A stretch of DNA of 64,000 bases, taken from positions 2,443,001-2,507,000 of the forward strand of contig NZ_CP104694.1 of assembly GCF_025398735.1 (NCBI RefSeq). The letters run 5' to 3'. Shown in pieces: positions 31,070 through 41,476 of the stretch. Every line of letters begins with the position of its first letter. The stretch's first letter is position 1. The notes below the pieces were generated by a model, which saw only the letters and a list, made by a program, of their open reading frames with translations, was not told the origin of the DNA and did no database searches. The position numbers and the translations under genes were made by a program. The stretch is from Tahibacter amnicola (lineage in GTDB: Bacteria > Pseudomonadota > Gammaproteobacteria > Xanthomonadales > Rhodanobacteraceae).

Positions 31070-32830
31070 ATGCACGGCATCGGCTTCTTGCAGGACCTCG
31101 CGGTCATCATGGTGGTCGCAGGCTGCACAACAGTGATCTTCCACCGGCTGCGCCAACCGGTGGTGCTCGGCTACATCCTCGCCGGCCTGCTCATCGGCCC
31201 TCACACGCCACCCTTCATGCTCATCACGGACGAGTCGACCATTCGCAATATTGCGGATCTGGGCGTCGTGCTGCTGATGTTCTCGCTGGGGCTGGAGTTC
31301 AGCCTGCCGCGATTGCGCGAAGTCGGCATCGCCGCACTCGCGGCCACTGGCGTGGAAGTCATGTTGATGTTGTGGGCCGGCTACGAACTGGGTCGCTGGT
31401 TCGGCTGGCGCACGACCGATGCCTTGTTCCTGGGCGCGATGATGGCGATCTCTTCGACCATGCTCGTGATCCGGGTGATCAACGAATCCGGACGCAAGCA
31501 CGAGCAGTTTGCGCGACTGGTCTTCGGCATCCTGGTGATCGAGGACGTGTTCGCGATCGCGCTGATCGCAGTGCTTTCGGGTATTGCCATCAGCGGCACC
31601 ATTGAACCGGGCCAAGCCGTCGAGACCATCGGCCGGCTTAGCCTGTTTACTGTCGTTGCACTCGTGCTCGGCCTGCTGTTGCTGCCGCGGCTTGTCGACT
31701 ACGTGGCATCGTTCGGTCGCAGCGAGATGCTGCTGGTCACCGCCCTGGGCATCTGCTTCGGCGGCAGCCTGCTGGCGGCCGCCGCCGGGTTCAGTGTCGC
31801 GCTCGGTGCGTTCATTGGTGGCGCTATCGTGGCGGAAGCGCAGTCGGTCAAGCGGGTGGAGCGCCTGATCGAACCCCTGCGTGACATGTTCGGCGCGCTG
31901 TTCTTCGTGGCGATAGGGCTACTGATCGAACCGCGCCTGTTGTTTGAATACGCCGTGCCGGTGTTGCTGGTCGCAACCTTCGTCATCGTGGGCAAGACCC
32001 TCGCATGCACCTTTGGCGGGCTGGTTGCCGGCAACGACGGGCACGTCAGCCTGCGCGCGGGCCTGAGCATGGCGCAGATCGGCGAGTTTTCGTTCGTCAT
32101 TGCCGCGCTAGGGCTCAGTCGCGGCGTGACCAGCGACTTCCTGTATCCCATTGCGGTGGCGGCCTCGGTGCTGACGGCGTTCGTCACCCCCTACCTGGTG
32201 CGCTCTTCCGACCGGATCGCAGACGTCGCCAACGCCGCGCTGCCGCGCAAGGTGCGCGGGCTGATGGCGGCCTATGCAAACTGGATCGCGGGGCTCAAGC
32301 CGGTCGAGGAGAATGTCGCCATCGCGCAAATGCTGCGAAGGCTGGTTGTGCACATTGTGATAAACATGGCGCTTGTGGTCGCCGTGTTCCTCGCGGCCGC
32401 CTGGGTCAAGCCGCGCATGTTGCAGTGGTTCCCGCAATGGACGGCCGGCGACACGATCCGGCGCAGCGTGTTGTGGTCCGCGGCCCTGGTGGTGGCGATG
32501 CCGATGCTGATCGCCGCTTACCGTAAGGCAGACGCTCTGGGCATGGTGCTGGCCGAGCTTGGCATTCGCGAGGGAGCGGCTGGTGCGCGCACCTACGCGC
32601 TGCGGCGGGTGCTCGGAAAGATGATACCGCTCGCCATGCTGGTGATCCTGGCGCTGCTGGTCATGGCATTGGGGTCGGCCATCCTGCCGTCGCATGAAGT
32701 GCTGATCCTCCTGCTGGCCGGAGCCAGCGCCCTGGCCGCGTTCCTGTGGCGCTCGTTTGTCCAGGTCCACGCCCGGCTGCAGGCCGCGTTGCGCGATGTC
32801 ATGCAGTCCGGGCGCGAAGGGGAAAATTGA
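31070..32830 (+). CDS. CPA2-family monovalent cation:proton antiporter
   Basis: 586 residues with about 12 to 14 membrane helices, similar to KefB/YbaL-type transporters. The N-terminus has RQPVVLGYILAGLLIGPHTP and LGVVLLMFSLGLEFSL, typical of this family. The helix MMAISSTMLVIRVINE and the acidic VIEDVFAIALIAVL segment carry the ion-translocating region. The C-terminal 150 residues contain more hydrophobic stretches instead of the TrkA-N nucleotide domain of KefB. No Shine-Dalgarno is obvious before the ATG, so the start is less certain. No partner regulatory protein is adjacent. Confidence 0.85.
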   Translation: MHGIGFLQDLAVIMVVAGCTTVIFHRLRQPVVLGYILAGLLIGPHTPPFMLITDESTIRNIADLGVVLLMFSLGLEFSLPRLREVGIAALAATGVEVMLMLWAGYELGRWFGWRTTDALFLGAMMAISSTMLVIRVINESGRKHEQFARLVFGILVIEDVFAIALIAVLSGIAISGTIEPGQAVETIGRLSLFTVVALVLGLLLLPRLVDYVASFGRSEMLLVTALGICFGGSLLAAAAGFSVALGAFIGGAIVAEAQSVKRVERLIEPLRDMFGALFFVAIGLLIEPRLLFEYAVPVLLVATFVIVGKTLACTFGGLVAGNDGHVSLRAGLSMAQIGEFSFVIAALGLSRGVTSDFLYPIAVAASVLTAFVTPYLVRSSDRIADVANAALPRKVRGLMAAYANWIAGLKPVEENVAIAQMLRRLVVHIVINMALVVAVFLAAAWVKPRMLQWFPQWTAGDTIRRSVLWSAALVVAMPMLIAAYRKADALGMVLAELGIREGAAGARTYALRRVLGKMIPLAMLVILALLVMALGSAILPSHEVLILLLAGASALAAFLWRSFVQVHARLQAALRDVMQSGREGEN

Positions 32831-32903
32831 GGCAACGCAGTCCGTAGCGTGTATATTTGTCGTCGTCGTGCGGCCTGCCGCACACACGGAGGCAGCGGCC
32901 GGC

Positions 32904-35900
32904 ATGGTTATGCGTCCTTGCGGAGGAATGTGGCGCTGGATCGCGGTGCAGATCGCGCCGGCCGCGATTCCTGGCACCGCAATGGCCGCCGCCGGCGATG
33001 TGCTGCCCGACTCCGGTAGTCCCTGGTCGGTCGTATTGGCCTGCGCCCTCGCGACGGTCGTCGGGGTGGGCACGTATGCGGTGATCTCATTCCGTGGCAA
33101 GGCGCGCATGCAGCGCCGTATCGCCGAAAGCCTGCGCGCCCAGAACGACATCCTGCACAACCTCGCCGAAGGCGCGCCGCGCGTCGACGTGCTCACCGCC
33201 GTTGATGCACTGCTGCACCAGTATCTGCCCCGGGCGCATATATCGGTGCGCTACGACCTGCCTTCCGGTCCGGTGCAGTGGCCGATACCCGCCAACGAGT
33301 ACGTCCAGCTGCTGCATGCCACGCTGGCCGCGGTGGATCTGAAGGTCGACCAGGAAAACGCCCTCTCGCTCTACGATGAAGGTGGCGGCCTCCGGTTGGG
33401 GGCCGAATTGCGCGCCCGGCTGATCACCGCCGGCTACGGAACCCTGTGGGTCGAGCCCCTGCTGGATACGAACCGGCAGCGGCGCGGCGAGGTGGTGCTC
33501 GCATTGCCGCAGCGCATGGCGCTGGCTGCCGGCGACCGTGTGGTGGCCCGTGCCGCTGCGGCGGCTGTCGGGCTGGTGCTGCAGCGTGACGCGACGCGCG
33601 AAGGTCTGGAGCAGGGCCGCGAGCTGTACCAGTCGCTGGTGGACAACCAGCCGGACGCGGTTCTCCGCCTGGACGAGCACGGCCGGATCGACGCCTCTAA
33701 CGAAGCGGCGCATATCCTGTTCGGCCGCAGCGCGGAAGAGCTGGCCGGCATGCTGCTGGCGGACCTGATGGAACCCGCCGTGGCTTTTATCCTGCCGATG
33801 CGGATTGCTGCGGCCCTCAAGGGGCGCGCCCAGGCGATCGACGCCACGGCGCCGCGTGCGGGATCGCGCCCGCGCGAGCTGGAATTGACCCTGATCCCCC
33901 TGCGGGAGGGGTCCAACGCGAGCGGCCTGTTCGCCGTGGCACGCGACCTCACCCGCTTCCGCGCCTCGGAGCGCGCCCTGCGCCGAACCTATGAGCTGTC
34001 GCTGTTGCTGCGCGACCAGCTGATCGAGCTCAACCAGATCGCTATTGCTGCCGCGGCCCTGGTGCACGTGGATCAACTGGTCGACTACCTGGCGGTCTCG
34101 ATGCGCCGTCTGGCGCGCGTGCGCATCGTGCGCATAGCCCTGGATCCGCGGGCGGACGGCCGCGGGCGCAGCGAGCCTTATGTGCACACGGTGGGTGATG
34201 GCGAGATCCAGGCCGACCTGCTTCCGGATTCCCTGCGCCAGTCGGCACGCCAGTGCACCGAGCCGACCCGCCGGTCTATGGTCGAGTTCGCTGCCGCATT
34301 GGGGGAGTCCGACACCGGCGAGGGAGCGCCGCGCACCTGGCTGGGCCTGGCCCTGGTCGACGACTCGGGCAGCGTGGTCGGTACCCTGGAATGGTTCGAC
34401 AAGCACGATGATGAATTCAGTGACGACGATGAAGTCCTGGCCACGCAGTTCGCGCGACTGACCACGGCCAACCTGCAGCGGACACGACTGGTCGGCTACC
34501 TGCGTGACGCCGAGAACAGCGTTGCGCACCAGCTGGCCTTCGTGCGCGCCATGGCATCGAGCGTGGGCGAGGGGTTGTATGCCATCGACCAGCAGGGGCG
34601 GCTGAATTTCATCAACCAGGCCGCCGAGCGCATGCTGTCCCTGGACCCGGGATCCCTGCGCGAGGTGGATGCCGAGCGCCATTTCCTGCCGCCCGGTGCG
34701 ACGGATGTCGGCCCGGGCATGCGTGCCCTGCGGGAGGGCAGCAGCATCACGGCCGAGCACGTGGAATTTATCGACCGGCAAGAGCGGCGCTTTCCCGTCG
34801 ACCTTGTCGCTGCCCCGCTCAACCTGGGCGGGGAGGTCGTCGGCGCCGTGGTGGTGTTCCGCGATATCAGCGACCGGTTGCGCGCCGAAGAGGAACGGCT
34901 CGAACGCGATCGTTTCTTTGAGCTGTCTGTCGAGCTGTTCATCATTATCGATGCGACCGGGCAATTGCTCCAGGCGAATGCGGCCGTGATCCGCCAGTTC
35001 GTTCGCCCTGGAACAGCGCTGACCGCCATGAACTGGCGCGAAGTGGTTCATCCGGACGACGTCTCGTCCACTGACGCGGTAATGGCGCAGCTGCTCGCAA
35101 CGGGGCGGCTGGAAGGCTTCGTCAATCGCTGGGTCGACGTGGACGGCCGCGTGCATTGGTTGGAGTGGGCTGGTTCCTTGTCGCCGGACCGGCGGATTTT
35201 CGCCGTCGCCCGCGATATCTCGGAGCGACGTCGCTACGAAAGCGAGCTGGCGCGCTACGCCACGCATGACAGCGTCACCGGATTGCCGCGCATCGAGCAG
35301 GTGGAGGCGTACCTGGTGTCGACCCTGGCGTCGGCGGCGCAGCGCGGTGGCCGCGTCAGCGTGTTCTACATCGACCTGGATCGCTTCCACGCGATCAACG
35401 ATTCCCGCGGGCACGGCGTGGGCGACGACGTCCTGCGCACCATCGCCGAGCGGCTGAGCAAGGCAGCCGGCGAGCAGGGAAGGGTGACGCGCATCGCGGG
35501 CGACGAGTTTGTCATCGTGCGTGTCGACGAAGGCGAGGGGCCGGACCAGCACGGGCTCGGCGAAATCTTTCGCGCCGCCGTCGAAGTGCCCATTGCCGTG
35601 GGCGACACGCACATTTTCCTGACCTGCAGCGTCGGTGTGAGCTGTTTCCCGGAGAACGGCACGACCCCGCGCGACCTCATTCGCCAGTCCGAGGCAGCGA
35701 TGACGCGCGCAAAGGACGAAGGCCGCAACGTCGTGGCGGCGTTCTCCAATGATGAGCAGCAGGCCCTGCGGGACCGGCTCGACCTCGGCACGCGCCTGCG
35801 CGGGGCGATCGACAATCGCGAGCTCACCTTGCATTTCCAGCCGCAGATCAGCGCCCACAACTGGCAGGTGACCGGCGTCGAGGCGTTGGTGCGGTGGAAT

Positions 35901-36983
35901 AGTCCCGAGCTGGGCATGCTGCTGCCGGGCCGCTTCATTCCGGTGGCCGAAGAGCTCGGTGTCATCGTCGAGCTCGGGCAATGGGTGCTGCAATCGGCCT
36001 GCCGCATGGCCAAGGAGTGGCTGGATAGCGGACTGGCGGATTTCGTCGTTGCGGTGAATGTGTCGTCACTGCAGTTGCAACGCCCGGAATTTCTCGAGCA
36101 CGTGCAGTACGCGCTGGAGGTTTCGCGGCTGCCGCCGCGCTATCTGGAGCTGGAGCTCACCGAAAGCATGGTCATGGCGCATGTGGACCGGGTCATCGGC
36201 TCGATGCGTTCGCTCAAGGCGCTGGGCGTCAGCCTGTCACTGGACGATTTCGGTTCCGGCTACTCCAGCCTCAACTACTTGCGCCGGTTTCCGATCGACA
36301 AACTCAAGATCGACCATTCCTTCGTGCACGATATCGTGACAGACCCGGGCTCAGCCGGTATCTGCCGCGCGGTGATCGCCCTGGGCCACCAGCTCGGCAT
36401 GATGGTCAGTGCCGAAGGCGTGGAAACCATCGGCCAGGCATCGTTCCTGCGCCGGAATGAGTGCGACCAGTTCCAGGGCAACTATTTCAGCCAGCCCTTG
36501 CCCGCGCAGCAGGCCTTCGAGGTATTGCGCCGGCGCTACCTGCGCCAGGAGGAACTTGGCGGCACGATCGAGCCGCAACGCGTTCCTGACACGCTGTTGC
36601 TGCTGGACGACGAGGAGAACGTCATTCGTGCGCTGGTGCGGCTGCTGCGGCGCGACGGCTACCACATCCTGACGGCGACATCGGCCAAGCAGGCCTACGA
36701 CCTTCTCGCCAGCCAGCCTGTTCACGTGATCGTTTCTGACCAGCGCATGCCCGATATCAGCGGCACCGATTTCCTGGGACGAGTGAAAGATCTCTACCCG
36801 GATACCGTGCGCCTGATCCTGAGCGGCTACAGCGATTTCGCATCGCTGACCGAGGCGCTGAACAAGGGAGCGGTCTATCGGTTCGTCGCCAAGCCCTGGG
36901 ACGATGAAGAACTGCGCCGCACCATCCGCGAGGCGTTCCGGATCAGCGAGTCGCGTCGCGAACCCAGTGCGGGAGCGGCGTAG
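32904..36983 (+). CDS. membrane PAS/GAF/GGDEF/EAL protein with C-terminal receiver domain
   Basis: 1,359 residues if the ATG at 32904 (GGAGG 12 bases upstream) is used. Order: signal-like N-terminus and a membrane helix at about 38-62, PAS (240-350), GAF-like (370-530), PAS (546-665), PAS (671-785), GGDEF (790-950), EAL (965-1210), receiver (1227-1345). The cyclase motif is RIAGDEFVIV near residue 865, an intact AGDEF; no RxxD inhibitory site precedes it. EAL is intact (TGVEALVRW near 993; DDFGSGYSSLNYL). The receiver reads LLLLDDEENV with Asp in VSDQRMP near 1278. It may be a dual cyclase/phosphodiesterase gated by phosphorylation; the receiver's kinase could be the convergent HK next door (inference). 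Confidence 0.85.
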   Translation: MVMRPCGGMWRWIAVQIAPAAIPGTAMAAAGDVLPDSGSPWSVVLACALATVVGVGTYAVISFRGKARMQRRIAESLRAQNDILHNLAEGAPRVDVLTAVDALLHQYLPRAHISVRYDLPSGPVQWPIPANEYVQLLHATLAAVDLKVDQENALSLYDEGGGLRLGAELRARLITAGYGTLWVEPLLDTNRQRRGEVVLALPQRMALAAGDRVVARAAAAAVGLVLQRDATREGLEQGRELYQSLVDNQPDAVLRLDEHGRIDASNEAAHILFGRSAEELAGMLLADLMEPAVAFILPMRIAAALKGRAQAIDATAPRAGSRPRELELTLIPLREGSNASGLFAVARDLTRFRASERALRRTYELSLLLRDQLIELNQIAIAAAALVHVDQLVDYLAVSMRRLARVRIVRIALDPRADGRGRSEPYVHTVGDGEIQADLLPDSLRQSARQCTEPTRRSMVEFAAALGESDTGEGAPRTWLGLALVDDSGSVVGTLEWFDKHDDEFSDDDEVLATQFARLTTANLQRTRLVGYLRDAENSVAHQLAFVRAMASSVGEGLYAIDQQGRLNFINQAAERMLSLDPGSLREVDAERHFLPPGATDVGPGMRALREGSSITAEHVEFIDRQERRFPVDLVAAPLNLGGEVVGAVVVFRDISDRLRAEEERLERDRFFELSVELFIIIDATGQLLQANAAVIRQFVRPGTALTAMNWREVVHPDDVSSTDAVMAQLLATGRLEGFVNRWVDVDGRVHWLEWAGSLSPDRRIFAVARDISERRRYESELARYATHDSVTGLPRIEQVEAYLVSTLASAAQRGGRVSVFYIDLDRFHAINDSRGHGVGDDVLRTIAERLSKAAGEQGRVTRIAGDEFVIVRVDEGEGPDQHGLGEIFRAAVEVPIAVGDTHIFLTCSVGVSCFPENGTTPRDLIRQSEAAMTRAKDEGRNVVAAFSNDEQQALRDRLDLGTRLRGAIDNRELTLHFQPQISAHNWQVTGVEALVRWNSPELGMLLPGRFIPVAEELGVIVELGQWVLQSACRMAKEWLDSGLADFVVAVNVSSLQLQRPEFLEHVQYALEVSRLPPRYLELELTESMVMAHVDRVIGSMRSLKALGVSLSLDDFGSGYSSLNYLRRFPIDKLKIDHSFVHDIVTDPGSAGICRAVIALGHQLGMMVSAEGVETIGQASFLRRNECDQFQGNYFSQPLPAQQAFEVLRRRYLRQEELGGTIEPQRVPDTLLLLDDEENVIRALVRLLRRDGYHILTATSAKQAYDLLASQPVHVIVSDQRMPDISGTDFLGRVKDLYPDTVRLILSGYSDFASLTEALNKGAVYRFVAKPWDDEELRRTIREAFRISESRREPSAGAA

Positions 36984-36988
36984 AGGGC

Positions 36989-38164
36989 TCAGACAGTTGG
37001 CGTCTGGCGCTGCGGCAGCGTGATGCGGAACGTCGTGCCCTCGCCGAGGCGGCTGTCGACGGTGATCTCGCCGTGGTGCTTGCGCACGATGCCGTAGGAA
37101 ATCGACAGTCCCAGCCCGGTGCCCTTGCCGACCGGCTTGGTGGTGAAAAAAGGATCAAATATCCGTTTTTGCACATCCGGCGGAATGCCGCCGCCGGTGT
37201 CGGTGATCTCCACCGAGACGGTGCCGTTGTTGCTGGAGGTCCTGACCCGGATCTCGCCGCGCTCTTCGATGGCCTGCGCCGCGTTCACCAGGATGTTGAC
37301 GAAGACCTGGTTGATCTGCGAGGGCAGGCACTCCACCAGCGGAAGGTTGCCGTATTCCTTGCGCACCTCGGCCTTGTACTTGATCTCGTTCCAGACGATG
37401 CCGATGGTGCTGTCCAGGCCGCGATGCAGGTCGAACAGTGACCAGGTTTCCATGCGGTCGGCGTGGGAGAAGTCGCGCAGGTCCTGCACGATGCGCCGCA
37501 CCCGGTCGATGCCTTCGCGCGATTCGGCCAGGAGCTGCGGCAGATCCTGCACCAGGAATTCGAAATCAATGTTGCGCTTGCGCTCGAGCACCTCGGCGCG
37601 CCGTTCCGGCGCCACGCCGGCGCTGGAGACGAGCGCGGCGTCGTAGCATTCGATGAGCCCGAACAGGTTGTTGAGGTATTCCTGCAGCGTGCCGAGATTG
37701 GAATGCACGTATCCGATGGGATTGTTGATCTCGTGCGCGATGCCCGCGGCCAGCTGGCCGAGCGAGGCCATTTTCTCCGACTGCACCAGTTGCTCCTGCA
37801 CCGTGTGCAGGCGCGCCAGGGCCAGCTCCAGACTCAGTCCCTGGCCGTCGGTGTCCGTGGTGGCATGCGTGCCGGCCGGCTCAAGCATGACCAGGGCGCA
37901 GCGGCCGCCGTTGTGTCCCAGCGGAATGGCAACCGTGCGAGTGTCCGCGCCACCGGATGCATTCTGCTGTGACGCCAGTACGGCCCGGGCCAGCTGTGCC
38001 ACGCGCTCGCGGGGATCAACCCCGCCGGCTGTGGATTGCGCCAGGCGTAGCGCCGCCGGATTGGCATGGAGGACGCTGTCGTCCTCCATCAGGACGGCGG
38101 GTTCGACCAGTCCGTCCAGTACCGCCCGTAGTTTGCCTTCTTCCAGCGAAGTGGATTCTTTCAC
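36989..38164 (-). CDS. soluble histidine kinase, NtrB-like
   Basis: About 391 residues from a GTG at 38162-38164; the start is uncertain because no clear ribosome site is seen and the frame is open upstream. An N-terminal PAS-like segment (LRAVLDGLVEPAVLMEDD) is followed by the phospho-His motif GIAHEINNPIGYVHSN near residue 140. The ATPase N and G boxes follow: NILVNAAQAI, DTGGGIPPD and GTGLGLSIS. No membrane helix is seen. It is convergent with the GGDEF/EAL/receiver gene (5 bases between stops), and its own 5' side is the Y RNA-like region, so it may be cotranscribed with those RNAs. Confidence 0.85.
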   Translation of the reverse strand: MKESTSLEEGKLRAVLDGLVEPAVLMEDDSVLHANPAALRLAQSTAGGVDPRERVAQLARAVLASQQNASGGADTRTVAIPLGHNGGRCALVMLEPAGTHATTDTDGQGLSLELALARLHTVQEQLVQSEKMASLGQLAAGIAHEINNPIGYVHSNLGTLQEYLNNLFGLIECYDAALVSSAGVAPERRAEVLERKRNIDFEFLVQDLPQLLAESREGIDRVRRIVQDLRDFSHADRMETWSLFDLHRGLDSTIGIVWNEIKYKAEVRKEYGNLPLVECLPSQINQVFVNILVNAAQAIEERGEIRVRTSSNNGTVSVEITDTGGGIPPDVQKRIFDPFFTTKPVGKGTGLGLSISYGIVRKHHGEITVDSRLGEGTTFRITLPQRQTPTV

Positions 38165-38306
38165 GCGGAGACATCCGGCAAGGCGACGCCTCGATTTTTC
38201 TCCAATCCCGGTCGAATTGAAATGGGGGAAGGTCGGAAATTCGCGGCCTTGCCGTGGCGGCGAGCCCAGGCAGCAGCGGCCGCTTGAGCCGCGCCGGGTG
38301 TGGTGA

Positions 38307-38462
38307 CGAAGGGCATGGGGAGAGTATCGACAAGGAATGAAGAGATTCGCCAAGAACCGTGCCCGGAAAATCGCTGCACGGCAGGGCAGGACTCGAACCT
38401 GCTCGCCTTTCGGCTTACCAATGTAGTCCCTTCGGTATTCGATACTCGCCCCATGCCCCTCG
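38307..38462 (-). ncRNA. Y RNA-like unit B (T-arm only)
   Basis: About 156 bases. The ends pair in a 24-position helix (38439-38462 with 38307-38330) with one C-T mismatch and one G-T pair. Inside, CCGAAGGGA (38435-38427) faces TCTCTTCATT (38345-38336) with a 7-bp stem GAAGGGA/TCTCTTC, as in unit A. The body has a hairpin GCC-GAAA-GGC, a T arm GCAGG-TTCGAGT-CCTGC (38402-38386), and a 7-bp acceptor-like stem GCCGTGC/GCACGGT with a 13-base loop. No D arm is found, unlike unit A. It lies 30 bases downstream of unit A on the same strand. The tRNA-like T arm and shared stem indicate a Y RNA paralogue, shorter and less tRNA-like, as YrlB is to YrlA in Salmonella. Confidence 0.65.
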
Positions 38463-38492
38463 ATGTCGCCGCCGGGGTAGCGGGTGAGCCGG

Positions 38493-38655
38493 CCCGGGAT
38501 ACCGGGCGAACATCGACAACAATGAAGAGATCGTTTTACGGCGCTCTGCCACTGAGCTACAGGGGCCCATACCCCTGGTGGGATTCGAACCCACGGCTTC
38601 CGGCACCCGATGCTGTAATCCCTTCGGCATTCGATGTTCGCCGGGTATCCCGGTG
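38493..38655 (-). ncRNA. yrlA: bacterial Y RNA (YrlA-like) with permuted tRNA-mimic module
   Basis: About 160 bases. The ends pair over 23 positions (38631-38653 with 38494-38516) with a single C-C mismatch. An internal loop then leads to GAAGGGA/TCTCTTC (38625-38619 with 38530-38524). The body reads T arm, acceptor, D arm: GTGGG-TTCGAAT-CCCAC (38594-38578), a closed 7-bp stem CAGGGGT/GCCCCTG capped by ATGG (38577-38560), then TA and GCTC-AGTGGCA-GAGC (38559-38543). The conserved G18 G19 and T54 T55 C56 A58 positions are all present. Known YrlA RNAs combine a Ro60/Rsr-binding stem with exactly such a tRNA mimic. CCGAAGG in the inner stem recalls the Ro-binding helix. A true tRNA is excluded: no CCA and no anticodon loop. 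Confidence 0.8.
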
Positions 38656-38782
38656 AACGGGGAGCGAGACGTCCCCTTGCGGGCCGTGCCGCCCATCGGC
38701 ACGGCCAGCGCCGGTGGCCCCACCCGGGTCAGCCGGCGCCCGGTGGTGATGCGGCGGGAGCCGCCGCGTCATCCGCCAGGCA
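38656..38782 (-). other. structured leader upstream of the Y RNA-like units
   Basis: Between the sigma-54-type promoter and unit A lie strong hairpins: GCGGCGG-CTC-CCGCCGC (38751-38767) and GGCCGTGCC with GGCACGGCC (38682-38706, 7-base loop). There is no T arm or tRNA-like piece here. These stems may protect or direct processing of the RNA. Confidence 0.5.
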
Positions 38783-38792
38783 GCAGGACAAT

Positions 38793-38809
38793 TACAAAGC
38801 GCGTGCCAA
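38793..38809 (-). promoter_or_regulatory. sigma-54 (-24/-12) promoter of the Y RNA-like units
   Basis: On the minus strand TTGGCACG, four bases, then TTGTA matches the consensus TGGCACG-N4-TTGCW except for T at the -12 position. GG and G(C/T) have the required 11-base offset. It would start RNA near 38782, about 127 bases before unit A. In Salmonella the rsr-yrlBA-rtcBA operon is also sigma-54 dependent (RtcR). Confidence 0.6.
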
Positions 38810-38893
38810 CGGCGTCATGGCGGGGAAATGCGCTGGATTTCAATGGCTTGCCCGTTGTCGTGATCCGGGATGGACAGAGGGTTTCGATCAGCC

Positions 38894-38911
38894 GGGATAG
38901 GGATCTATCCC
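38894..38911. promoter_or_regulatory. palindrome GGGATAG-GGAT-CTATCCC, possible enhancer site
   Basis: A perfect 7-bp inverted repeat, 11 bases past the hybrid-kinase stop and about 110-130 bases upstream of the predicted sigma-54 start, the usual distance for an activator site. It could instead be the end hairpin of the kinase mRNA, but no T run follows. Confidence 0.3.
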
Positions 38912-38922
38912 AGCAGATAAGC

Positions 38923-40872
38923 TTAGCCCGCGATCCTGTGGTTCACGATGGCACGCAGGCGGTCGCTGTCGAAGGGCTTCTCCAGCCGGTCGTTGGGTAC
39001 GTGGTCCAGAAACGACCGGGCGCTCGGCGTGAACGCACCGCCGGTGACGAAAATCATGCGTGACGCCTGCTCGGGCGCGGCCTGGAGGATCGCCGCGTGC
39101 AGCTCCATGCCGCTCATCTCCGGCATCATCAGGTCGCACAGGATCACGTCGTAGAGCTCTCCGGAATGGATCCGCTGCAGGGCCTCGCTGGCGCGCGTGG
39201 TGATCGTGACGTCGTGTTCGCGGCTGAGGATGCGCCGGACGGCCGGCCCCATGAGCGGCTCGTCGTCCACCATCAGCACCCGTCCACGGCGCCTGGCCGG
39301 CTCCACGATGATGGGTTGCGGTGCGTGGCTGCTGGTCGCGTCCGCCAGGGGCAGCAGCACACGGATCGTGGTGCCCTGGCCCAGTTCGCTCTCTACCTCG
39401 ATCTTGCCGCCCAGGCCGTCGACGATGCGCTCGCAGATCACCAGCCCAAGGCCCGTGCCGACGCCGACCGGCTTGGTCGTGAAGAAGGGCGTGAACAGGT
39501 GGCGCAGCGCATCGGGTGCGATGCCGCTGCCGGTGTCGGCGACTTCCACGACGATGCGGTCATCGCCCTGCAGGCGGGTGGCGATGCGGATGGTGTTGGC
39601 GTTCGCATCGCCCTCATCGATCGCCTGCGCCGCATTGACGATCAGGTTGAGAAATACCTGGCCCAGGCGCGATTCGGAGGTCATGACACGCGCGTCCGGC
39701 CCGAAATCCTTCACCAGGCAGGCGCGGTGGCGGATTTCATTCCAGGCCATGCGGATACTCGATTCGAGCACCGAGTGGATCTCGACCGCGCGCGTATCGG
39801 TGTACTCGTGCCGCGAAAACATCTTCAGGTCGCGCACGATGCTGCGAACACGGTTGATCGCCACCTGGGCGTCATCAAGCATTTCGTGCAGCTCGCCGGT
39901 ATCGCGCAGGTGCCCCGCCTTTTCCCGGTCGCTGATCGCCAGCTTGACCATTTCCAGGTTCGCCAGCACCGCGGCCAGCGGATTATTGATCTCGTGGCCC
40001 ACGCCGGCAGCGAGCATGCCGATCGATGCCATGCGATCGGAAATCATCAGCTGCTCATGCGAGGCGCGCTCGCGCGTGACGTCGCGGAACACGCCGACGG
40101 CACCGCGGACCGTCCCGTCGGCGTCGCGCAGCGGCCGTGCGTTGACCGACAGGTGCGCGCCTTTTGGCGCGGCCGGGCCGCACACGAACACAGCGTAGGA
40201 ATCGAGCGCTTCGCCGTGCAGCGCACGCTTGAGCAGGTCGACGGCGTTGGAGTGTGGAGTGATCGTGTCCGGGTGAAACAGGGACAAGGGCGGCTCCGGG
40301 TCTGTCGCTGCCGTATCGAAGCTGGCGAACAGTGGGTCCGCCGGTTGATTCCACAGCAATGGCCTGCCCGAGGTGTCGATCACCGCGACCCCGTCAGGAA
40401 CGCTGTCGATGACCAGGCGGAGCAGCCGCTCCGAGGATTCGATTTCGCGCCGCCGATGAACCACTTCGAGCTCGGCGGCGTGGCGCCGGCGCCGTTCCTG
40501 CGCCTCGCGCATCTCGCGGTCGATCGCCGGGATCAGGCGCGCAAACATGCCCTTGGTCATGAAGTCCTGGACGCCGGCATGCAGCGCCTCGACGGCGATT
40601 TCCTCGCCGATCGTGCCCGAGACGATCATGAAAGGAATGTCCGGGTCCCACTCGCGCGCAATGGAGAAGGCGTCAAGGCCTGTGAAGCGCGGCATGGACC
40701 AGTCCGAGATGATCAGATCCCACCGGCGCTGCTTGAGCGCCTGGCGCATGTCCTCGGGCGTCCAGACCTGGTCGTATTCCGGTTCATAGCCCCCCTGGCG
40801 CAGTTCCGCCAGGAGCAGCTGTGCGTCGGACTCGGAGTCCTCGACGATCAGGATGCGAAGTGGTCTGCCCAT
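38923..40872 (-). CDS. hybrid histidine kinase REC-PAS-HisKA-HATPase-REC
   Basis: 649 residues. Receiver 1 (about 4-120) starts RILIVEDSESDAQLLLAEL with Asp in IISDWSMP. A PAS domain includes VIDSVPDGVAVIDTSGRPLL. The phospho-His is in GVGHEINNPLAAVLANLE near residue 288. ATPase boxes are NLIVNAAQAI, DTGSGIAPD and GTGLGLVI. Receiver 2 (about 527-649) reads VLMVDDEPLM with Asp in ILCDLMMPEMSG. The ATG at 40872 has a strong AGGGGGG site. No membrane helix is seen. It follows the response regulator by 160 bases; after it comes the Y RNA-like region. Confidence 0.9.
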   Translation of the reverse strand: MGRPLRILIVEDSESDAQLLLAELRQGGYEPEYDQVWTPEDMRQALKQRRWDLIISDWSMPRFTGLDAFSIAREWDPDIPFMIVSGTIGEEIAVEALHAGVQDFMTKGMFARLIPAIDREMREAQERRRRHAAELEVVHRRREIESSERLLRLVIDSVPDGVAVIDTSGRPLLWNQPADPLFASFDTAATDPEPPLSLFHPDTITPHSNAVDLLKRALHGEALDSYAVFVCGPAAPKGAHLSVNARPLRDADGTVRGAVGVFRDVTRERASHEQLMISDRMASIGMLAAGVGHEINNPLAAVLANLEMVKLAISDREKAGHLRDTGELHEMLDDAQVAINRVRSIVRDLKMFSRHEYTDTRAVEIHSVLESSIRMAWNEIRHRACLVKDFGPDARVMTSESRLGQVFLNLIVNAAQAIDEGDANANTIRIATRLQGDDRIVVEVADTGSGIAPDALRHLFTPFFTTKPVGVGTGLGLVICERIVDGLGGKIEVESELGQGTTIRVLLPLADATSSHAPQPIIVEPARRRGRVLMVDDEPLMGPAVRRILSREHDVTITTRASEALQRIHSGELYDVILCDLMMPEMSGMELHAAILQAAPEQASRMIFVTGGAFTPSARSFLDHVPNDRLEKPFDSDRLRAIVNHRIAG

Positions 40873-41032
40873 GGCAGAGGCCCCCCTTGTCGGCTGTGGC
40901 GCTGAACGGGGCGGCGGCAGTCCAGGTCGATGATCAGAAAGGGAATCGCGGTGGCGGATCCGTCCGGGAGCTCGGGCCTGGACGGCTTCTGCCCGTTCCT
41001 GGAGAACAGGCGGAAAAGGGGGCGGTTGCGCA

Positions 41033-41476
41033 TCATCGGGACACGACACGGTTGATGGCCAGCCAGTAGTAGCCGGCCTGCTTGGCCACTTCGGCCAACG
41101 ATGTGAAATCGACCGGCTTGACCACGTAGCTGTTCGCGCCCAGCGCGTAGCTCTTGGCCACGTCGTTCTCTTCCTGCGAGGAGGTCATCACGACCACCGG
41201 TATGTTGCGCGTCGTCTCGTCGCTCTTGATCGCCTGCAACACCTCGATGCCATCCACGCGCGGCATTTTCAGGTCCAGCAGCATCAGGCGGGGCCCAGGG
41301 TCGTCGCGGGTGCTGTAGGGGCCGCGGCGGAAAATGTAGTCGAGGGCCTGCTGGCCGTCCGTGACCCAGATGACGCGGTTGGCCACGTGGCCGTCCTTCA
41401 ACCCGAGCATCGTCAATTCCGCGTCGACGGGGTTGTCTTCAACGAGGAGGATGTCGATCTGCTCAATGGCTTCCAT
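41033..41476 (-). CDS. single-domain response regulator (CheY-like/Rcp1 type)
   Basis: 147 residues, a stand-alone receiver of the Rcp1-like class that often serves phytochrome-type kinases. Features are DILLVEDNPVDAELTMLGL, the phosphorylatable Asp in LLDLKMPRVDG near residue 67, VVVMTSSQEE and the Lys in YVVKPVDF. No output domain is present, so it may pass phosphate or bind a partner. The ATG at 41476 has an AAGGA site and overlaps the kinase 3' end by 14 bases, so the two are translated together. Confidence 0.92.
   Translation of the reverse strand: MEAIEQIDILLVEDNPVDAELTMLGLKDGHVANRVIWVTDGQQALDYIFRRGPYSTRDDPGPRLMLLDLKMPRVDGIEVLQAIKSDETTRNIPVVVMTSSQEENDVAKSYALGANSYVVKPVDFTSLAEVAKQAGYYWLAINRVVSR

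Follow-up and report, generated by a model that had tools for sequence, protein, structure and literature searches.

Bacterial Y RNAs are small RNAs in which part of a tRNA is present as a rearranged copy. In Salmonella, a circularly permuted tRNA-like module is reported for YrlA (structure 6CU1) and the RYPER particle in passages of PMC11472068 and PMC8394870, and a layout of rtcR / rsr-Y RNA-rtcB-rtcA is described in passages of PMC9879122 and PMC7790460, the former also presenting the known rsr-Y RNA operons as sigma-54 driven. According to excerpts of PMC8394870, PMC4726728 and PMC7790460, Rsr binds the lower stem of the Y RNA, the Y RNA links Rsr to PNPase, and the complex degrades structured RNA. 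Excerpts of PMC9569102 list yrlA as a horizontal-transfer candidate in mycobacteria, and Y RNAs or Rsr-like proteins are mentioned for phages in excerpts of PMC7765460 and PMC12282133, so that, as far as these sources go, mobility of the YrlA family is not new. No title among the matches listed in our literature search dealt with Y RNAs placed away from rsr, which is not proof of absence.

We observed a tandem pair of YrlA-family Y RNAs, recognized by the Rfam covariance model RF02553, on the minus strand of the window, that is, of the whole 64-kb stretch of DNA that was analysed. The first copy, YrlA-1 (38494 to 38653, minus strand), is a complete Y RNA with a permuted tRNA-like module. A sequence-only reading had proposed a Y RNA at 38493-38655 and had named a significant covariance-model match as the test beforehand; RF02553 matched YrlA-1 with 57.1 bits (E = 2.5e-12 in the 601 bases searched, 6.5e-12 genome-wide), and this match, together with covariation in relatives, supports the identification. 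The architecture that had been read from the letters was also recovered. The outer helix of 23 positions with one mismatch is formed by a 5' arm at 38631-38653 and a 3' arm at 38494-38516 (23 nt, 96% complementary). Within it, the conserved inner (Ro-type) stem sets GAAGGGA (38619-38625) against TCTCTTC (38524-38530), 7 of 7 positions being paired, one as G-T, in the covariance-model alignment, with the letters rechecked. All three parts of the permuted tRNA module lie on the minus strand in the proposed order: a T arm (38578-38594; covariance model, alignment and rechecked letters), whose loop TTCGAAT has the expected T-loop letters; a closed acceptor-like hairpin of 7 bp (38560-38577; fold and covariance model), fully paired as CAGGGGT/GCCCCTG with one G-T; and a D arm (38543-38557; covariance model and rechecked letters), whose loop AGTGGCA contains the GG. 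The thermodynamic fold agrees, with a z score of -4.04 against shuffles and none of 200 shuffles as good. We infer that YrlA-1 is functional as a Y RNA.

Where that reading had seen one Y RNA, YrlA-1 stands, and a D-armless second copy, a further pair in the rtc locus and the separation from rsr had all been missed. The second copy, YrlA-2 (38307 to 38462, minus strand), lies downstream of YrlA-1. In the same RF02553 search it matched at 38321-38445 with 28.9 bits (E = 3.7e-4), its fold energy gave a z score of -4.51 (1 of 200 shuffles as good), and our model R2, which counts YrlA-2 itself among its 6 training rows, scored it at 106 bits. Its outer helix pairs a 24-nt 5' arm (38439-38462) with a 3' arm at 38307-38330 (92% complementary), and its inner stem again joins GAAGGGA (38427-38433) to TCTCTTC (38339-38345), as placed by the covariance model with rechecked letters. 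The T arm (38386-38402, loop TTCGAGT; covariance model, alignment and rechecked letters) is followed on its 3' side, in the place of the acceptor, by a closed 7-bp hairpin, GCCGTGC/GCACGGT (38356-38382; folds and rechecked letters), and both were retained when the core was folded by itself. No D arm was found in YrlA-2 by covariance model or folds. On the 5' side of the T arm, the full-length minimum-energy fold forms an extra hairpin, GCC-GAAA-GGC (38405-38414), which is paired differently in the core-only fold and which may be likened to a class II variable arm. D-armless copies recur in the tandem arrays of relatives (for example, L066, L070, L074, L076 and L080). When the ten best R2 matches were folded, YrlA-2 and all six R2 training rows being among them, the T-loop motif was present in all ten, the GCTCA D motif in none, and a separate hairpin before the T arm in six.

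The claim that the pairs would covary in relatives was borne out. In alignment A1, comprising 24 full-type copies, YrlA-1 and both rtc-locus copies included, 95.2% of the cells pair and 21 of 30 pairs show two-sided change, against a shuffled mean of 12.3; each of five covariation measures lay beyond all 500 shuffles, and pairing dropped to 35.7-52.2% when the structure was slid. For the D-armless form, as represented by the six training rows of R2, two-sided change was seen in 9 of 21 pairs (shuffled mean, 3.2), and four of the five measures were reached by none of 500 shuffles, the fifth, further pair types, by 90. Standard pairs in the MAFFT rows number 28 of 30 in YrlA-1 and 20 of 21 in YrlA-2; the two non-standard pairs of YrlA-1 both fall in the inner stem, all of whose positions are paired in the covariance-model alignment.

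Both window copies score below the RF02553 gathering score of 69 bits, and default Rfam searches therefore miss them. As had been anticipated for YrlA-1, routine finders pass the place by: ARAGORN and Rfam at gathering scores both returned three tRNAs in the window, at the same places, and nothing at 38300-38660. The gathering score is strict for the host's group, since only 5 of the 99 genomes in the relatives' set reach it, whereas in 15 of the 99 YrlA occurs beside or together with an Rsr-like ORF.

No Rsr or Rtc ORF was found in the 64-kb window. The same contig nevertheless holds a complete rtc locus, with a divergent rtcR followed by rsr-YrlA-YrlA-rtcB-rtcA. Its own tandem Y RNA pair of the same family (G000:C1:6151565-6151863) lies 3.67 Mb from the window pair along the contig; should the contig be circular, the opposite route measures 2.79 Mb. 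A first, stricter TROVE search of the genome gave no match, and a looser one gave a weak match (17.1 bits, E = 0.0068) beside these rtc-locus Y RNAs. The Rsr-like ORF found there (L064:7901-9502) passes the cut-offs of both vWA_Ro60 PF25045 (64.3 bits, cut-off 27.7; E = 1.7e-17) and TROVE (23.8 bits, cut-off 23), and the idea of a Y RNA without Ro was accordingly dropped; against the NCBIfam Rsr model NF041674 the ORF scores 71.6 bits, far below the cut-off of 900. A profile of 15 such Rsr-like proteins matches the solved 'Ro sixty-related protein, RSR' 2nvo (E = 8.6e-34), which we take to be the Deinococcus protein. Since rsr is present in the rtc locus of the same genome, an Rsr partner exists in trans for the window pair. 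A genome-wide R2 search with E up to 1, in which 150 of 2976 first-look candidates were scored, returned four copies, the rtc pair and the window pair. Under model R1, the rtc-locus copies score 119.8 and 122.3 bits against 92.9 for YrlA-1, which is itself among the 24 training rows of R1.

Of the 58 YrlA loci examined, 53 have rsr beside them and 4 have rtcR only; the remaining one, the window pair, has neither, 'beside' meaning within the locus stretch analysed (at most ~10 kb). In this count, the phylum sample and the inner-stem pattern matches may overlap in species, and the collection searched with the pattern may leave out the window's own genome. Adjacency to rsr is usual for YrlA and not defining, and the window pair is alone among the 58 in having neither rsr nor rtcR beside it. 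Within the host family (233 genomes), Rsr was found in 19, and YrlA at 44 bits or more under R1, a limit chosen after viewing the list, in the same 19 plus G100, where the match is a tRNA array. The family matches listed, down to the weak ones at which the list ends, comprise 22 loci, with 17 beside rsr, 4 with rtcR and without rsr (G001:C66, G004:C2, G005:C644 and G006:C4) and the window pair with neither. Candidate orphan loci in four congeners (L067, L073, L079 and L083) turned out to have the order rtcR - Y RNA - rtcB - rtcA and to lack rsr, which in these congeners stands on another contig. Outside the family, four loci of the same order (L069, L076, L081 and L082) have Rsr. In the phylum sample, 21 of 397 genomes had a match at E 1e-8; of these, three are tandem tRNAs, three had already been counted (G000, G020 and G070) and the other 15 all have an Rsr match. 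Two of the sample's Rsr matches are weak: L180 (E = 7.2e-24), where the longest reading of the Rsr ORF overlaps the Y RNA match, and L182 (E = 2.7e-17), where R1 covers only model positions 25-111. Searching with the inner-stem pattern of the window copies yielded 17 stretches, all with an Rsr ORF (that of L134 cut at the locus end), from Sphingomonadales, Rhodobacterales, Nannocystis, one Planctomycetales MAG and two acidobacterial MAGs. L070, L124, L128 and L171 each carry an array of five or six Y RNA matches at one rsr locus.

The outer helices of the window pair are unusually long. We surveyed 120 places scoring at least ~42 bits, from which L130 (cut off), L182 (partial) and the tRNAs L184 and L185 had been excluded. 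Of the 120, 111 were measurable; the other nine, among them the L183 tRNA pair, lacked an anchor or ran into a locus edge. When one mismatch at most was allowed, 79 of the 111 had outer helices of 6-9 pairs. As only five reach at least 20 pairs, namely, both window copies (22 and 23), L179 (25), L080 (23) and L125 (21), a long outer helix is rare and not unique. The two inverted repeats of at least 14 nt reported in the surrounding 1 kb are both outer helices of the window pair.

The pair is situated between two histidine kinase genes of the same strand, as assigned with Pfam. Upstream is a PAS hybrid histidine kinase gene with receiver domains (38923-41049, minus strand), whose stop is 269 nt from YrlA-1; downstream is a PAS histidine kinase gene (36989-38164, minus strand), with a probable GTG start at 38164 in an ORF open from 38353. 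The two kinases are paralogues of each other (phmmer E = 1.4e-49). Beyond them, on the plus strand, 32757-36983 encodes a large PAS-GAF-GGDEF-EAL protein with a receiver domain at its end. No counterpart of the upstream kinase was found in 7 congeners at E 1e-60 nor, with two candidates scored in full for each genome, in the order's other 397 genomes at E 1e-50, and a conserved neighbourhood is thus not traceable across relatives. Among the 8 genomes of the genus, the DNA of the pair occurs only in the host, apart from 20-base pieces in one of the 7 congeners.

With respect to origin, the two copies of the rtc pair share 85-87% identity and resemble the rtc copies of relatives closely, and the window copies are 71% identical to each other. 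In a comparison of 50 chosen sequences, the rtc-locus copies were not among the 8 nearest of either window copy; the nearest of YrlA-1 were Sphingomonadales and Nannocystis copies, a ranking that is biased because those copies had been chosen for sharing its inner stem. The window pair is therefore not a fresh copy of the rtc pair. It may have been acquired from outside. No match to the pair was found in 50,697 phage records, and the one match among 72,556 plasmid records, of 52 bases, is a tRNA-Arg junction on a Halobaculum plasmid. In this stretch of the haloarchaeal plasmid (L186), 8 kb carry 16 tRNA genes that are unlisted in its gene table.

Simple scans found neither a sigma-70 promoter nor a terminator around the window pair. 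A weak candidate sigma-54 promoter, TTGGCACGCGCTTTGTA, is located at 38793-38809 on the minus strand; its -12 element reads GT in place of the GC of the training sites. The site was first spotted by eye, and the pattern was then written to admit it; this pattern has 1 exact and 3 one-mismatch matches in the window, and 10 of 100 shuffles also reach 4. For a matrix, 27 rtc loci were scanned, of which 11 have the strict promoter pattern and 16 do not, and ten of the 11 promoters were used (own genome left out; two identical). With this matrix the candidate ranks first in the window at 13.1, the next window site scoring 12.9 and the host's own rsr promoter 22.4; a non-promoter site in L064 scores higher, at 14.75, and 75 of 20,000 mononucleotide-shuffled spacers (267 nt) reach the candidate's score. 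The site may serve as a promoter, a suggestion that we make only weakly. No RtcR upstream motif was apparent by eye in 8 aligned loci. Three perfect inverted repeats, their arms 7, 7 and 10 nt long, also lie in the spacer before YrlA-1 (38682-38911, minus strand).

We consider it likely that the window holds a relocated tandem YrlA pair that stands apart from rsr and is served in trans by Rsr. The protein, produced from the rtc locus, would bind the lower stem of the window Y RNAs, and the tRNA-like module may engage a partner such as PNPase, by analogy with the known RYPER particles. The window RNAs could then provide this Rsr with alternative tethers, and the D-armed and D-armless forms may present different modules. 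The pair might be co-transcribed with the kinase genes on either side, or else be transcribed from a promoter of the sigma-54 type within the 269-nt spacer. The long outer helices (22-24 nt) could let a double-strand nuclease such as RNase III excise each RNA and might also protect the ends of the RNAs. A bolder version, which we advance tentatively and think has perhaps one chance among several of being right, is that the pair left the RNA repair locus for a separate circuit, run by two-component kinases or a sigma-54 activator, that one Rsr accepts alternative Y RNAs in trans, one having a D arm and the other lacking it, and that the extended outer helix makes production of the pair independent of the rsr transcript.

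That the stretch is instead made of tRNA gene pieces, or folds this way by chance, we regard as extremely improbable, even though tandem tRNAs do mimic the YrlA module. The junction of two tandem tRNAs offers a T arm, closable acceptor strands and a D arm, the very order of the YrlA module (L183:9996-10185, L184:9944-10140 and L186:3962-4114), and it fools the model; by hypothesis, such a junction might also be the way in which the permuted module arose. False R1 or RF02553 matches of this kind occurred at L183, L184, L185 and G100, at eight places in the host's own genome and on the Halobaculum plasmid; those at L183-L185 and G100 had looked like Y RNAs without Rsr and are tandem tRNAs. In the host genome, RF02553 gave ten further weak matches of 28.7 bits or less, which are tRNA genes, since ARAGORN calls overlap all 8 loci run, and L007 and L009 belong to the same clusters; a fifth R1 match, at 36 bits, is covered by the same explanation. 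One such array, L112 (G100:C59), packs 30 tRNA genes into 3.1 kb. In the window stretch, however, ARAGORN finds no tRNA, both copies have the outer and inner stems specific to Y RNAs, and the E value of YrlA-1 is 2.5e-12; the reading as a tRNA remnant was rejected.

Decay deserves more weight: the pair might be a disused old copy of a Y RNA array that had shifted away from rsr. It lies far from rsr, is absent from 7 congeners, has no strong promoter and, in YrlA-1, scores lower under R1 than the rtc-locus copies (92.9 against 119.8 and 122.3). Yet both stems are intact in both copies, the outer helices of 22-24 nt differ in sequence while their pairing is kept, and the fold energies lie beyond those of nearly all shuffles, and we find disuse unlikely. 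Still less probable, in our estimate, is a purely local role, in which the structures would act in the histidine kinase mRNA, in processing, stability or as an attenuator, with a borrowed Y RNA fold and no need of Rsr. The paralogous kinase genes on both sides share the strand of the pair, and its long helices would resemble the sites of double-strand nucleases; against this, a mere processing element would not need the Ro-type stem and the tRNA-like module, which are kept in detail, and 57 of 58 YrlA loci are tied to rsr or rtcR. A relocated pair served by Rsr in trans remains our preferred reading. With two Y RNA pairs in one genome, only one of them at the rsr locus, the role of the RNA could be separated from Rsr expression, and the recurrent D-armless form raises the question of which part of the tRNA mimic is needed. 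For annotation, it matters that the Rfam score cut-off misses YrlA copies in the host's group.

Set against the described systems, the window pair is a known kind of RNA in a new setting. With YrlA (RF02553), the bacterial Y RNAs of rsr-yrlBA-rtcBA operons, YrlA-1 shares the outer stem, the Ro-type inner stem, the order of T arm, closed acceptor and D arm, and the T-loop and D-loop motifs. The pair differs from that family in not standing beside rsr, rtcR, rtcB or rtcA, in scoring under the gathering cut-off and in the length of its outer helices, 22-24 nt in both copies versus 6-9 in 79 of the 111 measured. The phage and mycobacterial YrlA, as far as the excerpts cited above describe them, are likewise Y RNAs outside the usual rtc operon, whereas the window pair matches no phage record and has no Rsr ORF in its 64 kb. 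As in Salmonella YrlA (6CU1, RYPER), the tRNA-like module seen here is circularly permuted. The host's own rtc-locus Y RNAs resemble the window copies in family, tandem arrangement and genome, but their inner stem, GGTGGAAC, is unlike that of the window copies. Finally, YrlA-2 resembles the D-armless Y RNAs of relatives in having the T arm and no GCTCA D motif, and is set apart from them by its much longer outer helix.
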